NCBI RefSeq assembly: GCF_024721175.1
Contig: NZ_CP099400.1
Span: 186,001-250,000, forward strand
DNA length: 64,000 nt
Direction of reading: 5' to 3'
Origin: Rhizobium sp. Pop5
GTDB lineage: Bacteria > Pseudomonadota > Alphaproteobacteria > Rhizobiales > Rhizobiaceae
A program made the translations under genes and the position numbers. Each line of letters starts with the position of its first letter. Positions within the stretch are counted from its first letter, which is position 1. Below, piece after piece: positions 3,078-13,480 of the stretch. Under the pieces are notes generated by a model that saw only the letters and a list, made by a program, of their open reading frames with translations, had not been told where the DNA came from and made no database searches.

Positions 3078-3770
3078 TCAATCCGGTTCCCTGAGCCGGT
3101 AGCCGACGCCGGTCTCGGTGGTGATATAGTGAGGCTGGTCCGGAATCTGTTCGACCTTTTGCCGCAGCTGCCTGACGTAGACGCGCAAATACTGCACGTC
3201 GGCCGCCGGACCCCATATTTGCTTCAAGAGAAACTGGTGCGTCAGCACCTTGCCGGCATGCTGGGCGAGCACGCGCAGGATATCGTATTCCTTCGGCGAC
3301 AATTTTATATCCTTGCCATCGACCTTGACGATGCGCTTGACGAGGTCGATCGACAGCCCGCCGGTCTGGAAGATCGCCTTTTCGCCCTGCTGCTGCAGGC
3401 GGTGGCGCAACGCCACGCGGATGCGGGCGCCGAGTTCGTTGATGCCGAAGGGCTTGGTGACGTAATCGTCCGCGCCGCTTTCGAGCGCCTTGACGATGCC
3501 GGCCTCGTCGGTGCGGCTGGACAGGATGACGACGGGCATGGAAAGGCCCTCGTCACGCCATTCCTGTAAGAGGTCATGGCCTGGTTTGTCGGGCAGTCCG
3601 AGGTCGAGCACGATGAGGTCAGGCATGTCTTCAGCGATGGATTGGGTGGCGGCGGCCGCATTCGGCGCCTCCCGGACTTCGTAGCCCTGCGCGGTGAGGC
3701 CGACGCGGAGTAGCTTACGGATCGGCGGCTCGTCGTCGACGACGAGGATTTTGACGGCTGAACCGGTCAT
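3078..3770 (-). CDS. kdpE: Potassium response regulator KdpE
   Basis: A 230-residue OmpR-family response regulator. The receiver domain (about 1-120) has the acidic pocket VVDDEP, the phospho-acceptor Asp near residue 56 in IVLDLGLPD and the conserved Lys in YVTKPF. The C-terminal winged helix ends ITTETGVGYRLREPD, the usual KdpE ending. It activates the kdp operon when phosphorylated by KdpD. The start overlaps the kdpD stop by four bases (ATGA), so translation is coupled. The ptsN paralogue follows downstream. Confidence 0.95.
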   Translation of the reverse strand: MTGSAVKILVVDDEPPIRKLLRVGLTAQGYEVREAPNAAAATQSIAEDMPDLIVLDLGLPDKPGHDLLQEWRDEGLSMPVVILSSRTDEAGIVKALESGADDYVTKPFGINELGARIRVALRHRLQQQGEKAIFQTGGLSIDLVKRIVKVDGKDIKLSPKEYDILRVLAQHAGKVLTHQFLLKQIWGPAADVQYLRVYVRQLRQKVEQIPDQPHYITTETGVGYRLREPD

Positions 3771-6475
3771 CTGAGTTCATCCAGTTTCGGAATGTCGTGG
3801 GGTTTCGGCAGGCGGATGGTGAAGACGGCGCCGGACCGGCCCCTTCGGTTGCCGGCGGCGATCGTGCCGCTCATCGCTTCGATGAAGCCGCGGCAGATCG
3901 AGAGGCCGAGGCCGGTGCCGGCACGCACCTGATCGCCCTTGCGCACGCGATAGAACGTGTCGAAGACGCGGGTGAGGTCGGCCGGGGGAATACCCGGGCC
4001 TTCGTCCGAAACCTGGATGACGACGCTGTCGGTATCTGCCCAACCTTCGATGTGGATCACCGATCCCTCGGGTGAATATTTCGCGGCATTGTCGAGCAGG
4101 TTGAAGATCACCTGCTCGAACAGGACAGGGTCGACGCGTACCATCGGCAGGTCGGTCGGCATGTTCATTTCGGTCTTGTGATGCTCGAGGATCTTTGTGG
4201 CGCGGCGTAGCGCGCTGCCGATGATGTCGCCGGCATAGTGCAGCGCATAGTTCGGCTCCATCGCGCCGGATTCGATCTTCGTCATGTCGAGCAGGTTGGC
4301 GATGAAGCGATTGAGCCGCTCCGATTCGTCGACGACAGTGGAGAGCAGGTCGCTTCGATCCTCTTCTGGCATGGAAGCGAAATAGTCGCGCAATGTGCCG
4401 GCGGCGCCGAGGATGGCGGCAAGCGGTGTCTTCAGGTCGTGCGAGATCGATGTCAGCAGCGCCGAGCGCAGCCGGTCGGCTTCGGCCGCGAGCCGTGCCC
4501 GGTCGACATCGGCGACAAGCTGGATGCGTTCGATGGCGAGCGCCGCCTGGTCGGCCAGCGCATCGAGCAGCCGCTGCTGTTCCGGCGTCAGCAGAGGCCC
4601 GTCGCGGCGGTCGCTATCGAGGCCGATGACGCCGACGGCGGTGCGCCCGGTTCGGAGCGGCACGTAGAGCCGCTTGGCGCCGGGCAGGGTATCGGCGCCG
4701 CGGCCGGCGGCGTGATTGTGTTCCCAGGCCCAGCGGGCGGCGGCGATATCGGCATCGTCGAGCGTGTCGTCGGGGGGATAACCGGCCTTGACGGCGATGG
4801 TGCCTTCCTCAGGCAGCAGCAGCACGACGCGTACCTTCAGCATCGAGGCGAGCTGGAAAGCGGTCGCCCAGAGCACGTCGTCGAGCGTGCCGGTGCCGGC
4901 GAGTTTCTTGGAGAAGAGATAGAGATCTTCCGTCGTGCGCGCCCGCTGCCGGGCGGCGGCGGCCTGGCGCTGCACCGTCGCGGTCAGATTGCTGGCGATG
5001 ATGGCGACGCCGAGGAAGAAGAACAGCGCAAGCACGCTTTCCGGATCGCTGATCGTCAGCGTGTAGCGCGGTGGCAGGAAAAAGAAATTGAAGGACAGAG
5101 CGCTCAGGATGCAGCTGTAAAGCGCCGGCCGCAGGCCGTGGATCACAGCGGAGGTCAGCACCGCCATCAGGAAGACGAGGGCGAGGTTGCGCACGTCGAG
5201 CACCTGGTCGAGCACGATGCTGACGCCGAGCGCGATGGTGACATAGACGGTCGCCAGCAGATAGGCCCAAAGATCCATTTGCGGCGATGTTGCGGCCGCC
5301 CTGATTCCGCGCGCGGTGGTGCCGTCCTTCTCGTTGCCTGAGATGACGTGGACGCTGATCTCGCCGGTCTTGCGGATCAGCTCATCGGTGATCGAGCGGC
5401 TCCACCAGTCGCGCCATGTCGGCTTCTTCGGGGCGCCGATGACGATATGGGTGACATTGTTGGCGGTGGCGTGCCGGACGAGCTCTTCAGCGACCTCGCG
5501 GCCGGGAATGGTGATCGCCTCGCCGCCGAGCTGTTCTGCAAGACGCAGTGTGTCGGCGACGGTATCGCGTTCGGTTTCCGTCAAATTGATCGAACGGCTG
5601 GTCTCGACATAGACGGCGGCCCAGGGGGCACGCAGCCGCGATGCCATGCGTGAGGCGTAACGCACCAGCGAGGCCGACCGCGGGTGATGGTCGACCGAAA
5701 CGAGGACGCGCTCGCCCGCCGCCCAAGGACCCGATATCGCGTGGGCCTGCATATGGGTGAGCAGCTGATCGTCGACGCGCTGGGCGGTCTTGCGCAGCGC
5801 CAGTTCTCTCAGCGCCGTCAGATTGCCGGGCGTGAAATAGTTGGTCAGCGCCCGCTCCGCCGTTTTCGGCATGTAGACCTTGCCGTCATGCAGGCGCTTG
5901 ATGAGATCGTCGGGCGTCAGGTCGATGATCTCGACGTCGTCGGCAAGGTCGATGATCGAGTCCGGCACCGTTTCGCGCACGCGGATGCGGGTGATCTGCG
6001 AGACGACGTCGTTCAGGCTCTCGACATGCTGGATGTTCAGCGTCGTATAGACGTCGATGCCGCGATCGAGCAGCTCCTTGACGTCGAGATAGCGCTTCGG
6101 GTGCCGGCTGCCCTCGGCATTGGTATGGGCGAGTTCGTCGACCAGCACGAGGTCGGGCCGGCGGGCGAGGATGCCGTCGAGATCCATTTCCTCGAGCGTC
6201 TGGCCGCGATAGGAGACTTTCACGCGTGGAATGATCTCGAAGCCGGCGAGCAGCGCCTCGGTCTCCTTGCGGCCGTGGGTCTCGACGACGCCGATGACGA
6301 CATCGAGACCATCGGAGATCTTGGCGCGGCCGGAGATCAGCATCTCATAGGTCTTGCCGACGCCCGGGGCGGCGCCCAGAAAGATCTTCAGACGGCCGCG
6401 CGTTTCTGCCCGGGCTTTTTCGAGAAGCGCATCGGGCGATGGCCTGCCGGCCTGGTCGCGATTGTCGTCTGGCAT
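3767..6475 (-). CDS. kdpD: Potassium sensor histidine kinase KdpD
   Basis: About 902 residues from the ATG used here (MPDDNRDQAG). A longer frame from a GTG at 6538, overlapping the kdpC stop as GTGA, is possible but adds a sequence unlike KdpD. Domains in order: KdpD N-terminal ATP-binding domain with Walker A GAAPGVGKTYEML (about 34-46); a universal-stress-like domain (VDHHPRSASLVRYASR); four membrane helices of the DUF4118 type; a GAF-like region; HisKA with the phospho-His in SISHDLKTPLAAILGAAGTL (about 675); and HATPase with DNAAKYSPEG, DEGPGIP and GTGLGLSICRG. It senses low K+ or turgor and phosphorylates KdpE. Full length for the family. Confidence 0.95.
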   Translation of the reverse strand: MPDDNRDQAGRPSPDALLEKARAETRGRLKIFLGAAPGVGKTYEMLISGRAKISDGLDVVIGVVETHGRKETEALLAGFEIIPRVKVSYRGQTLEEMDLDGILARRPDLVLVDELAHTNAEGSRHPKRYLDVKELLDRGIDVYTTLNIQHVESLNDVVSQITRIRVRETVPDSIIDLADDVEIIDLTPDDLIKRLHDGKVYMPKTAERALTNYFTPGNLTALRELALRKTAQRVDDQLLTHMQAHAISGPWAAGERVLVSVDHHPRSASLVRYASRMASRLRAPWAAVYVETSRSINLTETERDTVADTLRLAEQLGGEAITIPGREVAEELVRHATANNVTHIVIGAPKKPTWRDWWSRSITDELIRKTGEISVHVISGNEKDGTTARGIRAAATSPQMDLWAYLLATVYVTIALGVSIVLDQVLDVRNLALVFLMAVLTSAVIHGLRPALYSCILSALSFNFFFLPPRYTLTISDPESVLALFFFLGVAIIASNLTATVQRQAAAARQRARTTEDLYLFSKKLAGTGTLDDVLWATAFQLASMLKVRVVLLLPEEGTIAVKAGYPPDDTLDDADIAAARWAWEHNHAAGRGADTLPGAKRLYVPLRTGRTAVGVIGLDSDRRDGPLLTPEQQRLLDALADQAALAIERIQLVADVDRARLAAEADRLRSALLTSISHDLKTPLAAILGAAGTLRDYFASMPEEDRSDLLSTVVDESERLNRFIANLLDMTKIESGAMEPNYALHYAGDIIGSALRRATKILEHHKTEMNMPTDLPMVRVDPVLFEQVIFNLLDNAAKYSPEGSVIHIEGWADTDSVVIQVSDEGPGIPPADLTRVFDTFYRVRKGDQVRAGTGLGLSICRGFIEAMSGTIAAGNRRGRSGAVFTIRLPKPHDIPKLDELR

Positions 6476-6534: not shown

Positions 6535-7104
6535 TCACTCAGTCATAGAAGCATCAAGGCTCTGGTTCAACGCCAGAACATTGACCGTGGGTTCGCCGAG
6601 AATGCCGAGTTCTCGGGGCTGAACTGCACCGTCGACCAGGGCCTTGACCTTGGCCTCATCGATATTGCGTGCCTTGGCGACGCGCGGTACCTGGAAATAA
6701 GCTGCCTCTGGCGAGATGTGGGGATCGAGGCCGCTGCCCGAGGCGGTAACGAGATCGGCGGGCACGTCCGCATTCGGGTTCGAGGCTTTCGCAGCATCGT
6801 AATCGCCCTTGACCCTGTCGATCAGCTTCTGGCTGGTCGGGCCGAGGTTCGAGCCGCTGGAGGAGGCCGCATTGTAGCCGTCGCCGGCGGCCGAGGGGCG
6901 GCCGTGGAAATACTTGTCACTGGTGAAGGCCTGGCCGATCAGCGTCGAACCGATCACCTGGCCGTTCTTCTCGATCAGGCTGCCGTTCGCTTGGGTGGGG
7001 AAGAGCGCCTGGGCAGCGCCGGTCATGGCGAGCGGATAAAGAAGGCCTGTGATGGCCGTGGTGGCAACGATCATGACGAACGCCGGGCGAAATTCTTTCA
7101 ACAT
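6535..7104 (-). CDS. kdpC: K+-transporting ATPase subunit KdpC
   Basis: A 189-residue KdpC. The start [20 protein letters not shown] has a strong ribosome site (AAGGAGTAAGAACA) directly upstream; a longer in-frame extension overlaps kdpB and is not needed. One N-terminal membrane anchor is followed by the periplasmic domain with [20 protein letters not shown] and [14 protein letters not shown], both family signatures, and DPHISPEAA. KdpC stabilises the KdpFABC complex and supports high-affinity K+ uptake. It sits between kdpB and kdpD in the conserved order. Confidence 0.95.
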
Positions 7105-7153: not shown

Positions 7154-9214
7154 CTAAGCGAGGCCGAGGGCCGCGACAGCCATGTCGATCGCCTTGATGC
7201 CGATGAAGGGGACGATGATGCCGCCCAAACCGTAGATAAGCAGGTTGCGCGATAGGAGCGCGCCTGCGCCGATCGGACGATAGCGAACACCCTTCAGCGA
7301 CAGCGGGATCAGCGCGATGATGATCAGCGCGTTGAAGATGATCGCCGAGAGGATGGCGCTTTGCGGCGTCGATAGTCCCATGACGTTCAGGACGCCGAGC
7401 TGCGGATAGAAGGTCAGGAACATCGCCGGGATGATGGCGAAATACTTGGCGATGTCGTTGGCGATCGAGAAGGTCGTCAGCGCGCCGCGCGTCATCAGCA
7501 GCTGCTTGCCGATTTCGACGATCTCGATGAGTTTCGTCGGGTCCGAGTCGAGATCGACCATGTTGCCGGCCTCGCGGGCGGCGACCGTGCCGGTGTTCAT
7601 GGCAACGCCGACATCGGCCTGGGCGAGGGCGGGTGCGTCGTTGGTGCCGTCGCCGCACATGGCGACGAGCTTGCCCTTGGATTGTTCCTCGCGCATCAGC
7701 GCCAGCTTCATCTCCGGCGTCGCCTGGGCAAGGAAGTCGTCGACGCCGGCTTCGGCAGCTATGGCCGCAGCCGTCAGCGGATTGTCGCCCGTGATCATCA
7801 CGGTGCGGATGCCCATCCGACGCAGCTCGGTGAAGCGTTCGCGGATGCCGCCCTTGACGATATCCTTCAGCTGGATGACGCCAAGCAGTTTTCCATCGCG
7901 GGCAACGGCAAGCGGCGTACCGCCCGATTTGGCGACCTCGTCGGCGATCGACTGCAGGTCGCGCATGACTTCGCTGCCGTTCTTCGAAGGCGCGTCCCCG
8001 TTGACGTGAGCCAGCACCGCGTCGACCGCACCTTTGCGGATCGAGGCGCCCTCGAGATCGACGCCGCTCATCCGGCTTTGAGCGGTGAAAGGCACGAAGG
8101 TGGCCTTGAGGCTTGCCATATCGCGGCCGCGGATCGCGTATTTTTCCTTGGCGAGCACGACGATCGAGCGGCCTTCCGGCGTTTCGTCGGCAAGCGAGGC
8201 GAGCTGGGCGGCATCGGCAAGATCCTGTTCGGAAATGCCGCGCACTGGGCGGAAGGCCGTCGCCTGGCGATTGCCGAGGGTGATCGTGCCCGTTTTATCG
8301 AGCAGCAGCGTATCGACGTCGCCGGCGGCTTCGACGGCGCGGCCGGACATGGCAAGCACGTTGAAACGGACGAGGCGGTCCATGCCGGCAATGCCGATCG
8401 CCGACAGCAGCGCGCCGATCGTCGTCGGGATCAGGGTGACGAACAGGGCGACGAGCACGATGATCGGGATCGAGCCGCCGGCATAGATGGCAAAGCTCGG
8501 GATCGTCGCGGTGGCGAGCACGAAGATCAGCGTCATGCCGGCAAGCAGGATGTTGAGCGCGATCTCGTTCGGCGTCTTCTGGCGTTCCGCACCTTCGACA
8601 AGGGAGATCATCCGGTCGAGGAAGGTGGAGCCTGCGGCGGCGGTGATGCGCACGCGGATCCAGTCGGAGAGCACCTGCGTGCCGCCTGTCACCGCCGAGC
8701 GGTCGCCGCCGGATTCGCGGATGACGGGGGCGGATTCGCCAGTGATTGCCGCCTCGTTGACGGAGGCGACACCTTCGATGACTTCACCATCCGAAGGGAT
8801 GATGTCGCCGGCCTCGACGAGCACGATGTCGCCGACCTTGAGGCTGGTGCCCGGCACCATGCGGTAGCCGCTGCCATTATCAGCGGTCAGCAGCTTCGCC
8901 TGCGTTTCGGTGCGTGCCTTGCGCAGCGAATCCGCCTGCGCCTTGCCCCGGCCTTCGGCGACGGCTTCGGCGAAATTGGCGAAAAGCACGGTGAACCAGA
9001 GCCAGAGATTGATCTGGAAGGAGAAGCCGAGATTGCCGTTGCCGGCGATGAGGTCGCGCAGGAAGAGCACGGTGGTGAGCACCGAGACCGTGGCGACCAC
9101 GAACATGACCGGGTTTCTGGCGAGCGCGCGCGGGTCGAGCTTCTTGAAAGCGGCGCCCACGGCCGGAATGAGGATGCGAGAATCCATGATGCTCGCGGAT
9201 TTTGCCTGGCTCAT
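7154..9214 (-). CDS. kdpB: K+-transporting P-type ATPase subunit KdpB
   Basis: A 686-residue P-type ATPase catalytic subunit. The start [20 protein letters not shown] is preceded by CTGGAGTC; an upstream extension of this frame runs through the small ORF region and is not supported. It contains TGES ([14 protein letters not shown]), the phosphorylation motif [28 protein letters not shown], and the hinge [20 protein letters not shown]. It hydrolyses ATP to drive K+ from KdpA into the cytoplasm. Length and motifs are complete, so the subunit should be active. Confidence 0.96.
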
Positions 9215-9420: not shown

Positions 9421-11124
9421 TCAGAAGGTCTGGCCGGCGATCATGACCAGGTGCTCGACGACGGGGCCGAGTGCTAAGGCCGGGAAGAAGGTCAGGCCGC
9501 CGACGATCAGGATCGTGCCGACGAGCAAGCCGACGAAGAGCGGACCGTCCGTCGGGAAGGTGCCCGCCGAGGCCGGAACTGCCTTCTTGGCGATCAGCGA
9601 GCCGGCGATGGCAAGGGCCGGGATGATGACCAGGAAACGGCCGGCGAGCATGCCGATGCCGAGGGTCACGTTGTACCAGGGCGTGTTACCTGTCAGGCCG
9701 CCGAAAGCCGAGCCGTTGTTGGCCGCAGCCGACGTATAGGCATAGAGGATTTCGGAGAAGCCGTGCGGTCCCGCAGTGCCGATCGAGGCGACGGCGGAGG
9801 GCAGCACGGTGGCGATCGCGGTGAAGACAAGCATGGCGAGCGGCAGGCAGAGAATGGCGAGAACGGCCATCTTCATCTCCTTCGCTTCGATCTTCTTGCC
9901 GAGATATTCCGGCGTGCGGCCGACCATCAGGCCGGCGACGAAGACGGCGACGATGATGAAGAGCAGAATGCCGTAGAAGCCCGCGCCGACACCGCCGACG
10001 ATGATTTCGCCGAGCTGCATGTTGATCAGCGGAACCAGACCGCCGAGAGCGGTGAAGCTGCCATGCATGGCGTTGACAGCACCGCAGGAGGCGGCCGTCG
10101 TGATGACCGCAAAGAGCGAGGACAGCGCGACGCCGAAGCGGACTTCCTTGCCCTCCATGTTGCCGCCTGCGAGACCGAAGGCATGCATCAGCGGGTTGCC
10201 GGCGGCTTCCGCCCAATAGGTGACAATGACGCCCGCGACGAAGAGAACGCCCATCGTGGCGAGGATCGCCCAGCCCTGGCGCTGGTTGCCGACCATGCGG
10301 CCGAAGACATTGGTGAGAGCCGCGCCGATGGCAAAGATCGAGACCATCTGGATGAGGTTCGAGATCGCATCCGGGTTTTCGAACGGATGGGCGGAGTTGG
10401 CGTTGAAGAAGCCGCCGCCGTTGGTGCCGAGCATCTTAATGGCAAGCTGCGAGGCGACGGGGCCGACGGCAATCGTCTGCTGTGCGCCTTCGAGCGTCGT
10501 CGCATTGACATAGGCTCCGAGCGTCTGCGGCACGCCGAGATAGACATAGACGAGCGTCAGCACGACGCAGATCGGCAGCAGTACGTAAAAGGTCGCCCTC
10601 GTCATATCGACCCAGAAATTGCCGATGGCCTTGCCCGAAGAGCGTGCGAAGGCGCGGATAAAGGCAAGGGCGATGGCAATGCCGGTCGCGGCAGAGACGA
10701 AGTTCTGCACGGTGAAGCCGGCCATCTGAGTGAGATAGGACATCGTGCTTTCACCGCCGTAGTTCTGCCAGTTGGTGTTGCTGACAAAGCTGACGGCAGT
10801 GTTGAAAGAAAGCTCGGGCGGAACGGCCGCCATGCCGGCCGGATTATAGGGAAGGCCGGCCTGCAGGCGCTGCAACGCGTAAAGGACGATGACGCCGAGC
10901 AGGTTGAAGAGCAGCATGGCGAAGGCATACGAGGTCCAATGCTGCTCCTCCCGTTCACTGGTGCCGGCAAGTCGGTAAAGTCCCCGTTCGATCGGAACGA
11001 GGACGGGTGAGAGGAGCGTGCGCTCGCCGCTGAAGACGCGCGTCATATAGGCACCGAGCGGTTTGACGAGCACGAGGACGATCCCGCAGAAAAGCAGGAT
11101 CTGAAGCCATCCGTTGAGGGTCAT
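9421..11124 (-). CDS. kdpA: K+-transporting ATPase subunit KdpA
   Basis: A 567-residue polytopic membrane protein that forms the K+ channel-like pore of KdpFABC. The selectivity-filter region is visible, for example [20 protein letters not shown], and [20 protein letters not shown] near residue 470. The N-terminal segment [20 protein letters not shown] is typical. Length is normal (about 560). KdpF is encoded 50 bases upstream and the small ORF plus kdpB follow. Confidence 0.96.
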
Positions 11125-11174
11125 GGAGTTAAACTTTCAATACCCGACTGTTTCCCGGTCGCGCATGCGCGACC

Positions 11175-11264
11175 TCAGAAGCGTTCCGGGCGAAGGAGAG
11201 CGTAGGTGAGGTAAACGGTGAGAAACACGGTCACTCCACCGCTCAAGACATAGTCGAAGGTCAT
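11175..11264 (-). CDS. kdpF: KdpF, small subunit of the K+-transporting ATPase
   Basis: A 29-codon ORF reading MTFDYVLSGGVTVFLTVYLT then YALLRPERF. It is one transmembrane helix ending in the ERF motif that closes KdpF in many bacteria (LLxPERF). A ribosome site (AAGGGAA) precedes the ATG. It lies in the canonical place just before kdpA. KdpF binds KdpA and stabilises the complex. Too short for usual gene finders. Confidence 0.88.
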   Translation of the reverse strand: MTFDYVLSGGVTVFLTVYLTYALLRPERF

Positions 11265-11277
11265 TGTCGGTGTTCCC

Positions 11278-11361
11278 TTAGAGCCTGTCGCAGGCACTGA
11301 CGTAGGCAAAGCACAGCGCGAAGAATAAGATCGCCGTGCCGAGTAGAATGATATCCATCAT
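11278..11361 (-). CDS. Single-helix microprotein upstream of kdpF
   Basis: A 27-codon ORF: MMDIILLGTAILFFALCFAY then VSACDRL. One transmembrane helix is followed by a short polar tail ACDRL. Three in-frame ATGs exist (11367, 11361, 11358); the AGGAG at about 8 bases favours 11361. The stop is 13 bases before the kdpF start. I have the impression that very similar tiny ORFs ending in Y-x3-CDRL or CERL occur before kdpF in other bacteria, but I cannot check this here. It is the first gene of the kdp transcript. No function is known to me; a regulatory or stabilising peptide of the pump is an inference from position. Confidence 0.65.
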   Translation of the reverse strand: MMDIILLGTAILFFALCFAYVSACDRL

Positions 11362-11527
11362 GATCATGACTCCTGTTGTTCTTCTTGGAGTCAGACAAGA
11401 CAAAGGGCGCCGTCCTGAAGGAGGTCGCCTTTCATGCTTTCTGGCGTGGAGATGATCTTTTCGATCTCTCGGACATCAATATGGAGCCGGAGGGCATAAA
11501 GGTTCGAGACGGGCCGACAGCCATCAA

Positions 11528-11544
11528 TATAAAAATCTTATAAA
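11528..11544 (-). promoter_or_regulatory. Candidate KdpE binding site / kdp promoter region
   Basis: Two TATAAA hexamers on the plus strand (11528-11533 and 11539-11544; TTTATA on the coding strand) are spaced 11 bp start to start, about one helical turn. This matches the direct-repeat layout that OmpR-family regulators bind and resembles the T/A-rich KdpE site of E. coli. It lies about 170 bases upstream of the first kdp ORF, in the AT-richest part of the gap. No promoter boxes are certain. Confidence 0.4.
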
Positions 11545-11571
11545 TGCTTTTATCGGCCCGAAGCGGTGGCT

Positions 11572-11934
11572 CTACGGATCGACTCGGAACTGATATCGGC
11601 CTTCGGCGCTGCGGCCGTCCATCGAGAGGACGCGCCAGTCGAGAGTATAGAGGCCCGGTGCCATCGAGGGATCGAGCGGGATCTTGAATATGGAGCCTTC
11701 GGGGCCGGAGAGAAAGGGCCTGCCTGTCGGAAGCGCCGTGCCCTTCGCATCCAGCAGGACAGCCGTCGAGCGGGCAAGATCGACAGGGCCGGTGAATGTG
11801 AGTTCGAGATTGACCGGCACCAGCCCTTCTTCCTGCTGCTGCGGCGGAAGCGATGCCTCCTCGATCGCGGCAGACGCTCCGGTTGCGGCAAGGAGAAGGG
11901 ATGCGAACAGGCAAAATGACGCGATCGACTTCAT
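11572..11934 (-). CDS. CopC-like periplasmic protein lacking the usual copper ligands
   Basis: A 120-residue secreted protein with a signal peptide MKSIASFCLFASLLLAATGA-SAA. The start used has a ribosome site GGAAG. The mature part is a short Ig-like CopC domain: LELTFTGPVDLARSTAVLLD, PLDPSMAPGLYTLDWRVLS and the closing SMDGRSAEGRYQFRV, equivalent to the CopC signature S-x-DGH-x3-G-x3-F-x-V. The N-terminal His of mature CopC is absent, and the His of DGH is Arg here. Copper binding of the classical type is therefore doubtful. It lies alone upstream of kdp on the same strand, with no CopD nearby. Confidence 0.7.
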   Translation of the reverse strand: MKSIASFCLFASLLLAATGASAAIEEASLPPQQQEEGLVPVNLELTFTGPVDLARSTAVLLDAKGTALPTGRPFLSGPEGSIFKIPLDPSMAPGLYTLDWRVLSMDGRSAEGRYQFRVDP

Positions 11935-12012
11935 GATGGTCTTCCTTCTCTTGCCGATCCGCGCGGTGCCGGGAGCCGTCATGTCCCCGCGACGCCATGC
12001 CGGCGCCTGCTA

Positions 12013-12216
12013 TTAACGCTGTATGGGACGATTTCGATCCATTGGCTTGACAATAACGCGCACCGGCTTCGGCGAGCGGTCTTCTTCGAACGCGGCGATA
12101 CAATTGTCCACGAGCCGGCGCCAGAGATCCCGGAATTGCTTTGGTATCGTCGCGCCGCGAGAGATATTCCTGACGATATTATCGTTATCGTGGTTCATAT
12201 CTTTATCTTTCTTCAT
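12013..12216 (-). CDS. Small hypothetical protein
   Basis: An ORF of 67 codons from the ATG at 12216 (MKKDKDMNHDNDNIVRNISR). Longer (12270) and shorter (12198) in-frame ATGs exist, and none has a clear ribosome site. The middle, IPKQFRDLWRRLVDNCIAAF, could be an amphipathic helix and the end (VRVIVKPMDRNRPIQR) is basic. A TATATT box lies just upstream of the start. I do not recognise a family. The coding claim is moderate; it could be a chance ORF before the CopC-like gene. Confidence 0.4.
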   Translation of the reverse strand: MKKDKDMNHDNDNIVRNISRGATIPKQFRDLWRRLVDNCIAAFEEDRSPKPVRVIVKPMDRNRPIQR

Positions 12217-12436
12217 TGATGGCGATCTAGACTTGAGAATATACTCCCCGATAGCCTCGGCTGGAATCATCCAGAGGTCTTGGGACGGGAATCTTTCGGG
12301 TTATGGAAAATGGGCATTTCATCGCATGATGAGCAAAAGCTTGATTGGTGCGATTGAATTGCTGCCCCTTACGGTCTTATAGTCCCGTCAACGGCGCTCC
12401 ATGAATCGCGGGAGGCCATAGGGAAGGAAACCGATC

Positions 12437-13480
12437 ATGACCAAAGTCCGTGCGCTGGTGCTGGAGCGCCAGCATGAGCTCGCGCTTCGCGATATCGATC
12501 TGCCTCTGGAAACGGGACCGGGGCAGGTGAAGATCAAGATTCATACAGTCGGCGTCTGCGGTTCGGACGTGCATTATTATACCCACGGCAAGATCGGTCC
12601 CTTCGTCGTCAATGCGCCGATGGTGCTCGGCCACGAGGCGGCGGGCACGGTGGTCGAGGTCGGACCTGATGTCGCGCATCTGAAAGTTGGCGACCGCGTC
12701 TGCATGGAACCGGGAATTCCCGATCCGAATTCGAAGGCAAGCCGCCTCGGCCTGTACAATATCGATCCCGATGTCACCTTCTGGGCAACGCCGCCGATCC
12801 ATGGCGTACTGACGCCTGAGGTCGTGCACCCTGCCAACTATACCTTCAAGCTGCCCGACAATGTCAGTTTCGCCGAAGGCGCCATGGTCGAACCTTTCGC
12901 GGTCGGCATGCAGGCGGCTCACAAGGCGAAGATCGCGCCTGGCGATACCGCTGTCGTTCTCGGCGCCGGGCCGATCGGCACGATGGTGGCGATCGCCGCC
13001 CTTGCCGGCGGCTGCGCCCGCGCCATCGTCGCCGATCTCGCCCAGCCGAAGCTCGATATATCAGCGCAATATCAGGGCGTGATCCCCGTCAACATTCGCG
13101 AGAAGAACCTGATCGAGGAAGTCGGTCGGCTGACCGAAGGCTGGGGCGCCGATGTCGTCTTCGAATGCTCCGGTTCGCCGAAGGCCTGGGAAACGATCAT
13201 GGCGCTGCCGCGCCCGGGCGGAGTCATCGTCGCCGTCGGTTTGCCGGTCAATCCGATCGGCTTCGACGTCTCAACGGCGTCCACCAAGGAAATCCGCATC
13301 GAGACGGTATTCCGCTATGCGCATCAGTATGAACGTTCGATCGCGCTCCTGGCATCGGGTCGTGTCGATCTCAAGCCGCTGATATCAGGAACGTTCAAAT
13401 TCGAGGATTCGATCAAGGCGTTCGATCGCGCCGTCGAGGCGCGGCCGAGTGACGTGAAGCTGCAGATCGTGATGGAATAG
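12437..13480 (+). CDS. Zinc-dependent polyol dehydrogenase (xylitol/sorbitol dehydrogenase type)
   Basis: A 347-residue medium-chain dehydrogenase. The catalytic zinc ligands are visible in [13 protein letters not shown] (Cys) and LGHEAAG (His, Glu). The Rossmann motif is [20 protein letters not shown]. The segment [20 protein letters not shown] is characteristic of sorbitol/xylitol dehydrogenases, and the structural-zinc cysteines are missing as in that group. It should oxidise a sugar alcohol (xylitol, sorbitol) to the ketose with NAD+. It is a single gene with a ribosome site GGAAGGAAACCG; the stop is 11 bases before the convergent DedA gene. The exact substrate is not decidable. Confidence 0.85.

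Follow-up and report, generated by a model that had tools for sequence, protein, structure and literature searches.

A conserved microprotein gene in the kdp operon of Rhizobium sp. Pop5 and other bacteria

Results and discussion

The kdp locus

We define the "window" as the whole stretch of 64,000 nucleotides that was analysed (Rhizobium sp. Pop5, contig NZ_CP099400.1, positions 186,001 to 250,000). It carries a complete kdp operon on its minus strand, in the order X, kdpF, kdpA, kdpB, kdpC, kdpD, kdpE, where X denotes a microprotein of 27 residues (MMDIILLGTAILFFALCFAYVSACDRL). The KdpF peptide encoded by the 29 codons that follow is MTFDYVLSGGVTVFLTVYLTYALLRPERF. The features of the locus, in window coordinates, are:

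11370..11374, minus strand: Shine-Dalgarno site of X, AGGAG, read from the sequence
11278..11361, minus strand: X, microprotein of 27 codons with one hydrophobic helix and the tail Y-x3-C-D-R-L; ATG at 11361, TAA at 11280-11278
11274..11279, minus strand: ribosome site of kdpF, AAGGGA, overlapping the X stop codon, read from the sequence
11175..11264, minus strand: kdpF, 29 codons; PF09604 33.7 bits, E 3.3e-8; TIGR02115 33.3 bits; both above cut-off
9421..11124, minus strand: kdpA, 567 codons; PF03814 E 1.7e-248
7154..9214, minus strand: kdpB, ORF, start chosen by us at MSQAKS; used as tblastn query
6535..7104, minus strand: kdpC, ORF, start chosen by us at MLKEFRP; used as tblastn query
3767..6475, minus strand: kdpD, PF02702 E 1.6e-98, start chosen by us at MPDDNRD
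3078..3770, minus strand: kdpE, ORF; used as tblastn query

An initial annotation of this DNA had reported two single-helix ORFs of 27 and 29 codons ahead of kdpA, the second being KdpF and the first having a ribosome site of its own, 13 bases apart. The list above bears this out: both ORFs are in place on the minus strand, both KdpF models recognise the second, and 13 nt (11265-11277) separate the X stop from the kdpF start. Three ATGs, at 11367, 11361 and 11358, are candidate starts for X, and 11361 was adopted because AGGAG (11374..11370) lies 8 nt upstream of it. The X stop codon TAA (11280..11278) overlaps the kdpF site AAGGGA (11279..11274), suggesting that translation of the two genes is coupled at this locus. 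Judged by position, X is probably the first gene of the kdp transcript in this strain. The genome (6.7 Mb, 5 contigs) contains a single clear copy of X (E 3.2e-12), the next best match having an E value of 0.69. The closest named relative of the window kdpA among the best 80 of 588 matches is that of Rhizobium vallis (97%).

An 18-bp perfect palindrome, GGTCGCGCATGCGCGACC, lies at window positions 11157-11174, at the start of the gap between kdpF and kdpA. It is identical in loci L002 and L092, the gap being longer in L092; it is altered in L154 and L197 and absent from L003-L006, L016 and L103. Possibly it folds in RNA as a hairpin that influences how stable the transcript is or whether it terminates after kdpF.

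Conservation and selection

An X-like ORF together with kdpF precedes kdpA in all 80 of the loci nearest to the window by KdpA relationship (two have an identical leader). These are the best 80 of 588 confirmed stretches, nearly all from Alphaproteobacteria by title. In the pooled set L001-L161, X is present at 139 of 161 loci. With a threshold of 9 bits, a profile of X matched 195 of 249 kdpA leaders; counting identical leaders once, the figure is 176 of 229. Because its training set was made up of these same loci, the argument rests on the controls rather than on the raw count: no hits (0/249 each) were obtained in the reverse strand, in dinucleotide-shuffled leaders or in either strand of kdpA-internal sequence, the best control score being 8.6 bits. 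Also, 141 of the 172 distinct X starts have a Shine-Dalgarno core in front of them; among the remaining ATGs of these leaders, 61 of 806 do.

X is a conserved protein gene under purifying selection. Substitution rates were compared in 46 independent pairs. The 107 distinct X genes that supplied the pairs come from 112 loci, most of them in Alphaproteobacteria and 12 in other classes. The pN/pS ratio was 0.36 in the X frame and 1.09 and 1.31 in the shifted frames. When the same changes were placed at random, pN/pS averaged 0.79 with a minimum of 0.63, and none of 500 draws reached 0.36 or less. For comparison, the dN/dS of KdpF is 0.19 (51 pairs). The initial annotation had named two outcomes that would count against the gene, conservation limited to close relatives and equal rates of synonymous and non-synonymous change. 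Neither was seen: the spread of X is wide, as described below, and its dN/dS is 0.30.

Sequence features and annotation

Members of the X family are mostly 26-37 residues long. An acidic residue at the start is followed by one hydrophobic helix, in which a Phe is conserved, and the C-terminal tail is charged. The tail Y-x3-CDRL noted at the outset is present in the window X, but ACDRL is not a fixed signature: in the weighted family (83 effective sequences) C occupies position 24 in 51% and an acidic residue (D or E) position 25 in 71%, and other lineages have FDRLRRR, LSRL, ADRA and other endings. The charge of the tail, with DRLRRR in some lineages, leads us to expect a cytoplasmic C terminus by the positive-inside rule, so that X would be oriented with its N terminus out and its C terminus in. 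Conservation along the helix had no significant 100-degree periodicity (p 0.11), and no protein-facing stripe is claimed.

No Pfam or NCBIfam model matched the window X, and for the family no credible match was found in Pfam, NCBIfam or PHROG. A protein database search with the window X returned one relative, a frame of 72 residues that contains X; the same search with a beta-type X returned none, and there was no credible match to X among PDB chains. Taken at the sequence level, X is a widespread microprotein family that has no Pfam or NCBIfam model and is tied to the Kdp pump.

The suggestion that gene finders miss X is largely borne out in rhizobia and too broad in general. A tblastn search of plasmids with the 27-residue peptide matched 160 records, 138 of them Rhizobium. 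Among 40 records listed of the 160, 34 have no feature under X, two have a "hypothetical protein" and four carry no annotation, in a plasmid gene table that is incomplete by its own description. In Mycetohabitans, however, X is called in 8 of 9 plasmid records, under the name "potassium ABC transporter ATPase". The protein concerned, WP_338861741.1, scores 35.9 bits with the X profile and is encoded directly before kdpF, with the ends overlapping. With 34 residues it is too short to be an ABC transporter protein or an ATPase, and the name is that of the database only.

Distribution

To place X in whole genomes, 200 Pseudomonadota genomes were searched with a profile that includes members from some of them. 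We obtained 49 matches with E <= 1.1e-4 in 48 genomes, all of them in kdp loci: 47 lie directly beside kdpA, and in the other two (genomes G097 and G145) X and kdpF form a pair where the contig ends. A further six, weaker matches (E 0.02-0.04) are embedded in open frames with lengths of 178 to 921 codons and were taken as chance. This search misses weak members, for example L119, which scores 35 bits locally; it indicates where X is rather than every X, and some stray copies away from kdp are therefore possible.

Among 398 sampled genomes, 135 had KdpA, and 135 loci from 134 genomes were taken (G189 was left out and G089 entered twice). In this Pseudomonadota sample X was found in 90 of the 135 kdpA loci, L206 being set by hand, and not in the remaining 45. 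The latter include L134, where an X-like ORF falls below threshold. We classed the X-less loci ourselves, by resemblance: an enterobacteria-like KdpF tail (e.g. NAEAF) is seen in 14, a Pseudomonas-like KdpF (e.g. LLRADRN) in 15 and a KdpA only 36-39% identical to that of the window in 10, with 6 others. The enterobacterial type is seen directly in one E. coli record (L160), in which KdpF is present and X absent. Absence from 45 of 135 loci implies that X is dispensable in some pumps. Genome G089 has two kdpA loci (L147 and L148), both with X and kdpF; one of the KdpA matches is split in two pieces.

Outside Pseudomonadota, X was found in Deinococcus radiodurans, D. psychrotolerans, Bacillus badius and Subdoligranulum (Clostridia). 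The match in Listeria grayi is weak (10-11 bits), and in Niallia taxi an X-like ORF stays under the threshold. X was not found at the kdp loci of Halobacterium, Lactiplantibacillus plantarum, Enterococcus raffinosus and Deinococcus sp. AJ005, nor, within Pseudomonadota, in Acinetobacter nosocomialis. X thus occurs in Pseudomonadota, Deinococcota, Bacilli and Clostridia, and is absent from enterobacteria-like and Pseudomonas-like pumps.

Gene order and inheritance

The order X-kdpF-kdpA is found in most loci, and X is usually the first ORF. The initial annotation made it the first gene of the kdp transcript, which fits the usual arrangement and does not hold as a rule. The order is kdpF-X-kdpA in L139, L142 and L263 (Burkholderia stagnalis), kdpB-X-kdpF-kdpA in two Deinococcus records, and kdpF-kdpB-X-kdpA in G241, where X stands alone before kdpA. 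In the rearranged loci examined, X remains inside the structural operon despite these changes of order. G241 (L267) and G349 (L268) both have rearranged operons, with kdpF before kdpB and kdpA after kdpB; X was not detected in G349. In the 135-locus sample, kdpF is in the operon of all 90 X-bearing loci, a further 41 loci have kdpF without X, and in 4 neither was detected before kdpA. One of these four is G349, with its kdpF before kdpB.

As the usual first ORF of the operon, X could be a leader peptide that controls kdp expression by attenuation or access of Rho, in which case its sequence would matter little; Rho-dependent control of kdp has been proposed in Caulobacter, according to excerpts of PMC8552747. 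Against this, X is internal in Deinococcus and G241 and follows kdpF in L139, L142 and L263, its amino acid sequence is under purifying selection, and no Rfam element was matched at window positions 11000-12500. We rejected a 5' leader peptide or attenuator on the positions of X, which are not always 5', and on the purifying selection, and regard such a role as barely credible.

X is inherited along the KdpA tree. On a tree of 150 rows, 7 changes suffice to explain the presence or absence of X, whereas with shuffled labels the average is 42; the tree is unrooted and does not divide the changes into gains and losses, and three of the X labels were set by hand.

Relationship to KdpF

X and KdpF are alike in several ways. 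Both have about 29 residues (KdpF being the family of PF09604 / TIGR02115), a single hydrophobic helix and neighbouring genes, both are under purifying selection, and both end in an acidic, a basic and a hydrophobic residue ([DE]RL in X, ERF in KdpF). They differ in that KdpF is present in the E. coli record and X is not. These likenesses could mean that X is a tandem duplicate of kdpF acting as a second KdpF. However, the KdpF models (PF09604, TIGR02115 and NF011342) matched neither X itself nor any of 55 members at E <= 0.1, our own profiles of X and KdpF cross-score at no more than about 11 bits, and hhalign aligned the two profiles with a probability of 12.6% over 3 columns, a comparison that is limited by the shortness of the sequences. 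KdpF paralogy was rejected on the failure of the profiles to match despite the similar ends, and a second KdpF is a very improbable identity for X. Homology between X and KdpF is not supported by these comparisons, and distant paralogy is conceivable for so short a sequence.

The KdpF tail itself varies. Of the unique KdpF sequences, 130 of 143 at loci with X have a P ahead of the acidic residue, compared with 12 of 41 at loci without it; the correlation of the tail (P-E versus A-E) with X was not significant on 5 independent pairs.

Proposed role

MgtR, sarcolipin, phospholamban and FXYD are single-span regulators of P-type ATPases, and KdpFABC is a textbook P-type ATPase. X resembles these regulators as a small partner of one helix; the likeness is one of analogy only. 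Our best reading is that X, with its single span, serves the Kdp pump as an accessory subunit or regulator alongside KdpF. An accessory subunit best explains the data because clear copies of X occur only with the Kdp structural genes, X is inherited with KdpA, in one case it is present without KdpD, and its position in the operon is variable. X would be expressed with the pump from the kdp operon, presumably being translated in vivo, and would be placed in the membrane in likely contact with KdpA, KdpB and KdpF. The charged tail, C-[DE]-R-L(-RRR), would lie at the cytoplasmic face, and X might stabilise the complex or tune its activity, as KdpF does. We consider it probable that X is a single-helix accessory subunit of this kind, beside KdpA, KdpB and KdpF with a cytoplasmic tail, stabilising the complex or tuning its activity. 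That it is a stoichiometric fifth Kdp subunit, ancestral and since lost on the line leading to the E. coli pump, is a serious possibility that we hold tentatively. Of the initial proposal, a genuine subunit or regulator of the K+ pump, the part that concerns a real second microprotein under selection stands, and the subunit role is one that we infer from linkage and selection.

The linkage and selection data apply equally to an assembly or turnover factor, which would assist the insertion of KdpA or KdpF, or mark the pump for proteolysis, and would not reside in the finished complex. In most loci X lies close to kdpF or overlaps it, which suggests that their synthesis is coupled and fits such a factor. 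X has no credible match in Pfam, NCBIfam or PHROG that would point to it, and the data do not separate it from a resident subunit; we think it unlikely, with some real chance of being correct.

X could also act outside the pump as a small regulator of the KdpD sensor kinase, reporting the state of the pump, in the manner of MgrB, which acts on PhoQ. Of the long loci with X that were examined, all but L136 and L147, which is truncated, also contain a KdpD domain, and excerpts of PMC3618439 ascribe to membrane peptides such as KdpF a regulatory function and the ability to interact with sensor kinases. However, KdpD is equally present in X-less loci: apart from the two exceptions, it accompanies loci with and without X throughout the 55 long loci. 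L136 comes from genome G175, which is in 20 contigs and has a completeness rating of 100%. This genome contains X but gives no match to PF02702 anywhere, which in this single case disfavours an obligate partnership with KdpD. In Deinococcus X lies among the structural genes, and excerpts of PMC5716572 place the kinase half of D. radiodurans KdpD in a separate, oppositely oriented operon. A KdpD regulator is, in our judgement, distinctly unlikely.

Published work and known systems

Small ORFs ahead of kdpA have precedents. Treuner-Lange et al. reportedly described kdpZ and kdpY of Clostridium acetobutylicum in 1997 as small ORFs for hydrophobic peptides, and the kdp genes of Alicyclobacillus are said to be arranged as kdpZFABC. 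The C. acetobutylicum transcript is cited as kdpZYABCXDE, with two extra genes before kdpA, in excerpts of PMC5401905. kdpZ resembles X in its place, and Subdoligranulum, also of the Clostridia (L261), has X before kdpF there. By its place and its reported description, kdpZ may be a member of the X family. The sighting itself is probably not new, since kdpZ is likely to be on the 1997 map; the family, its distribution and its selection appear to be new.

In other systems X may have been overlooked. For the kdp operon of Caulobacter crescentus, excerpts of PMC8552747 describe a kdpF that had escaped annotation and a 5'UTR, about 100 nt long, with a high degree of predicted structure. On a Phenylobacterium plasmid (Caulobacteraceae), X fills the 83 nt upstream of kdpF, with an overlap of one base at the kdpF start; by analogy, the Caulobacter "UTR" may encode X. 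For Sinorhizobium fredii CCBAU45436, excerpts of PMC9239096 report kdpF, A, B and C in one operon by RT-PCR, and X lies directly before kdpF in this strain. In the available excerpts of the kdp literature we found no function for X and no biochemical, ribosome-profiling or genetic data on it. This holds, as regards function, for the excerpts of PMC8552747, PMC10903887, PMC11364881, PMC9650054, PMC5401905, PMC5716572, PMC11018627, PMC6488665 and PMC9239096. The term "kdp" does not occur in the available main text of a paper on the small proteome of Sinorhizobium meliloti (PMC10117765).

The distribution of X suggests that the textbook E. coli pump is without a part that is common to many other pumps. 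The 25 PDB entries that match KdpA comprise three sequences, each 557 residues long and scoring nearly alike, which we take to be those of E. coli, a pump without X. If X is indeed an ancestral fifth subunit, the complex in the solved KdpFABC structures would be a reduced one, and the membrane space next to KdpA or KdpB that looks empty in the maps would be the place of X. If two thirds of Pseudomonadota pumps (90/135), and some in Bacillota and Deinococcota, carry an X subunit, purified pumps are incompletely described, and kdp constructs that start at kdpF omit a part.

A third ORF between kdpF and kdpA

A third single-helix ORF, of 29-38 codons, lies between kdpF and kdpA in 28 distinct loci, mostly at -109 to -4 from kdpA, and in many of them it ends at the kdpA start. 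Nearly all of these loci are among L039-L065, L100, L102, L114, L201, L203, L204 and L209-L211; they are Bradyrhizobium by title, together with genomes that have like sequences. Examples are MSALCTILLADAVLTGLLLGMFASLLRFVPIRKV in L039 and a peptide ending in LLPARKF in L043. The pN/pS of this ORF is 0.43 in just 5 pairs of one subtype. Perhaps it encodes a second, lineage-specific Kdp microprotein.
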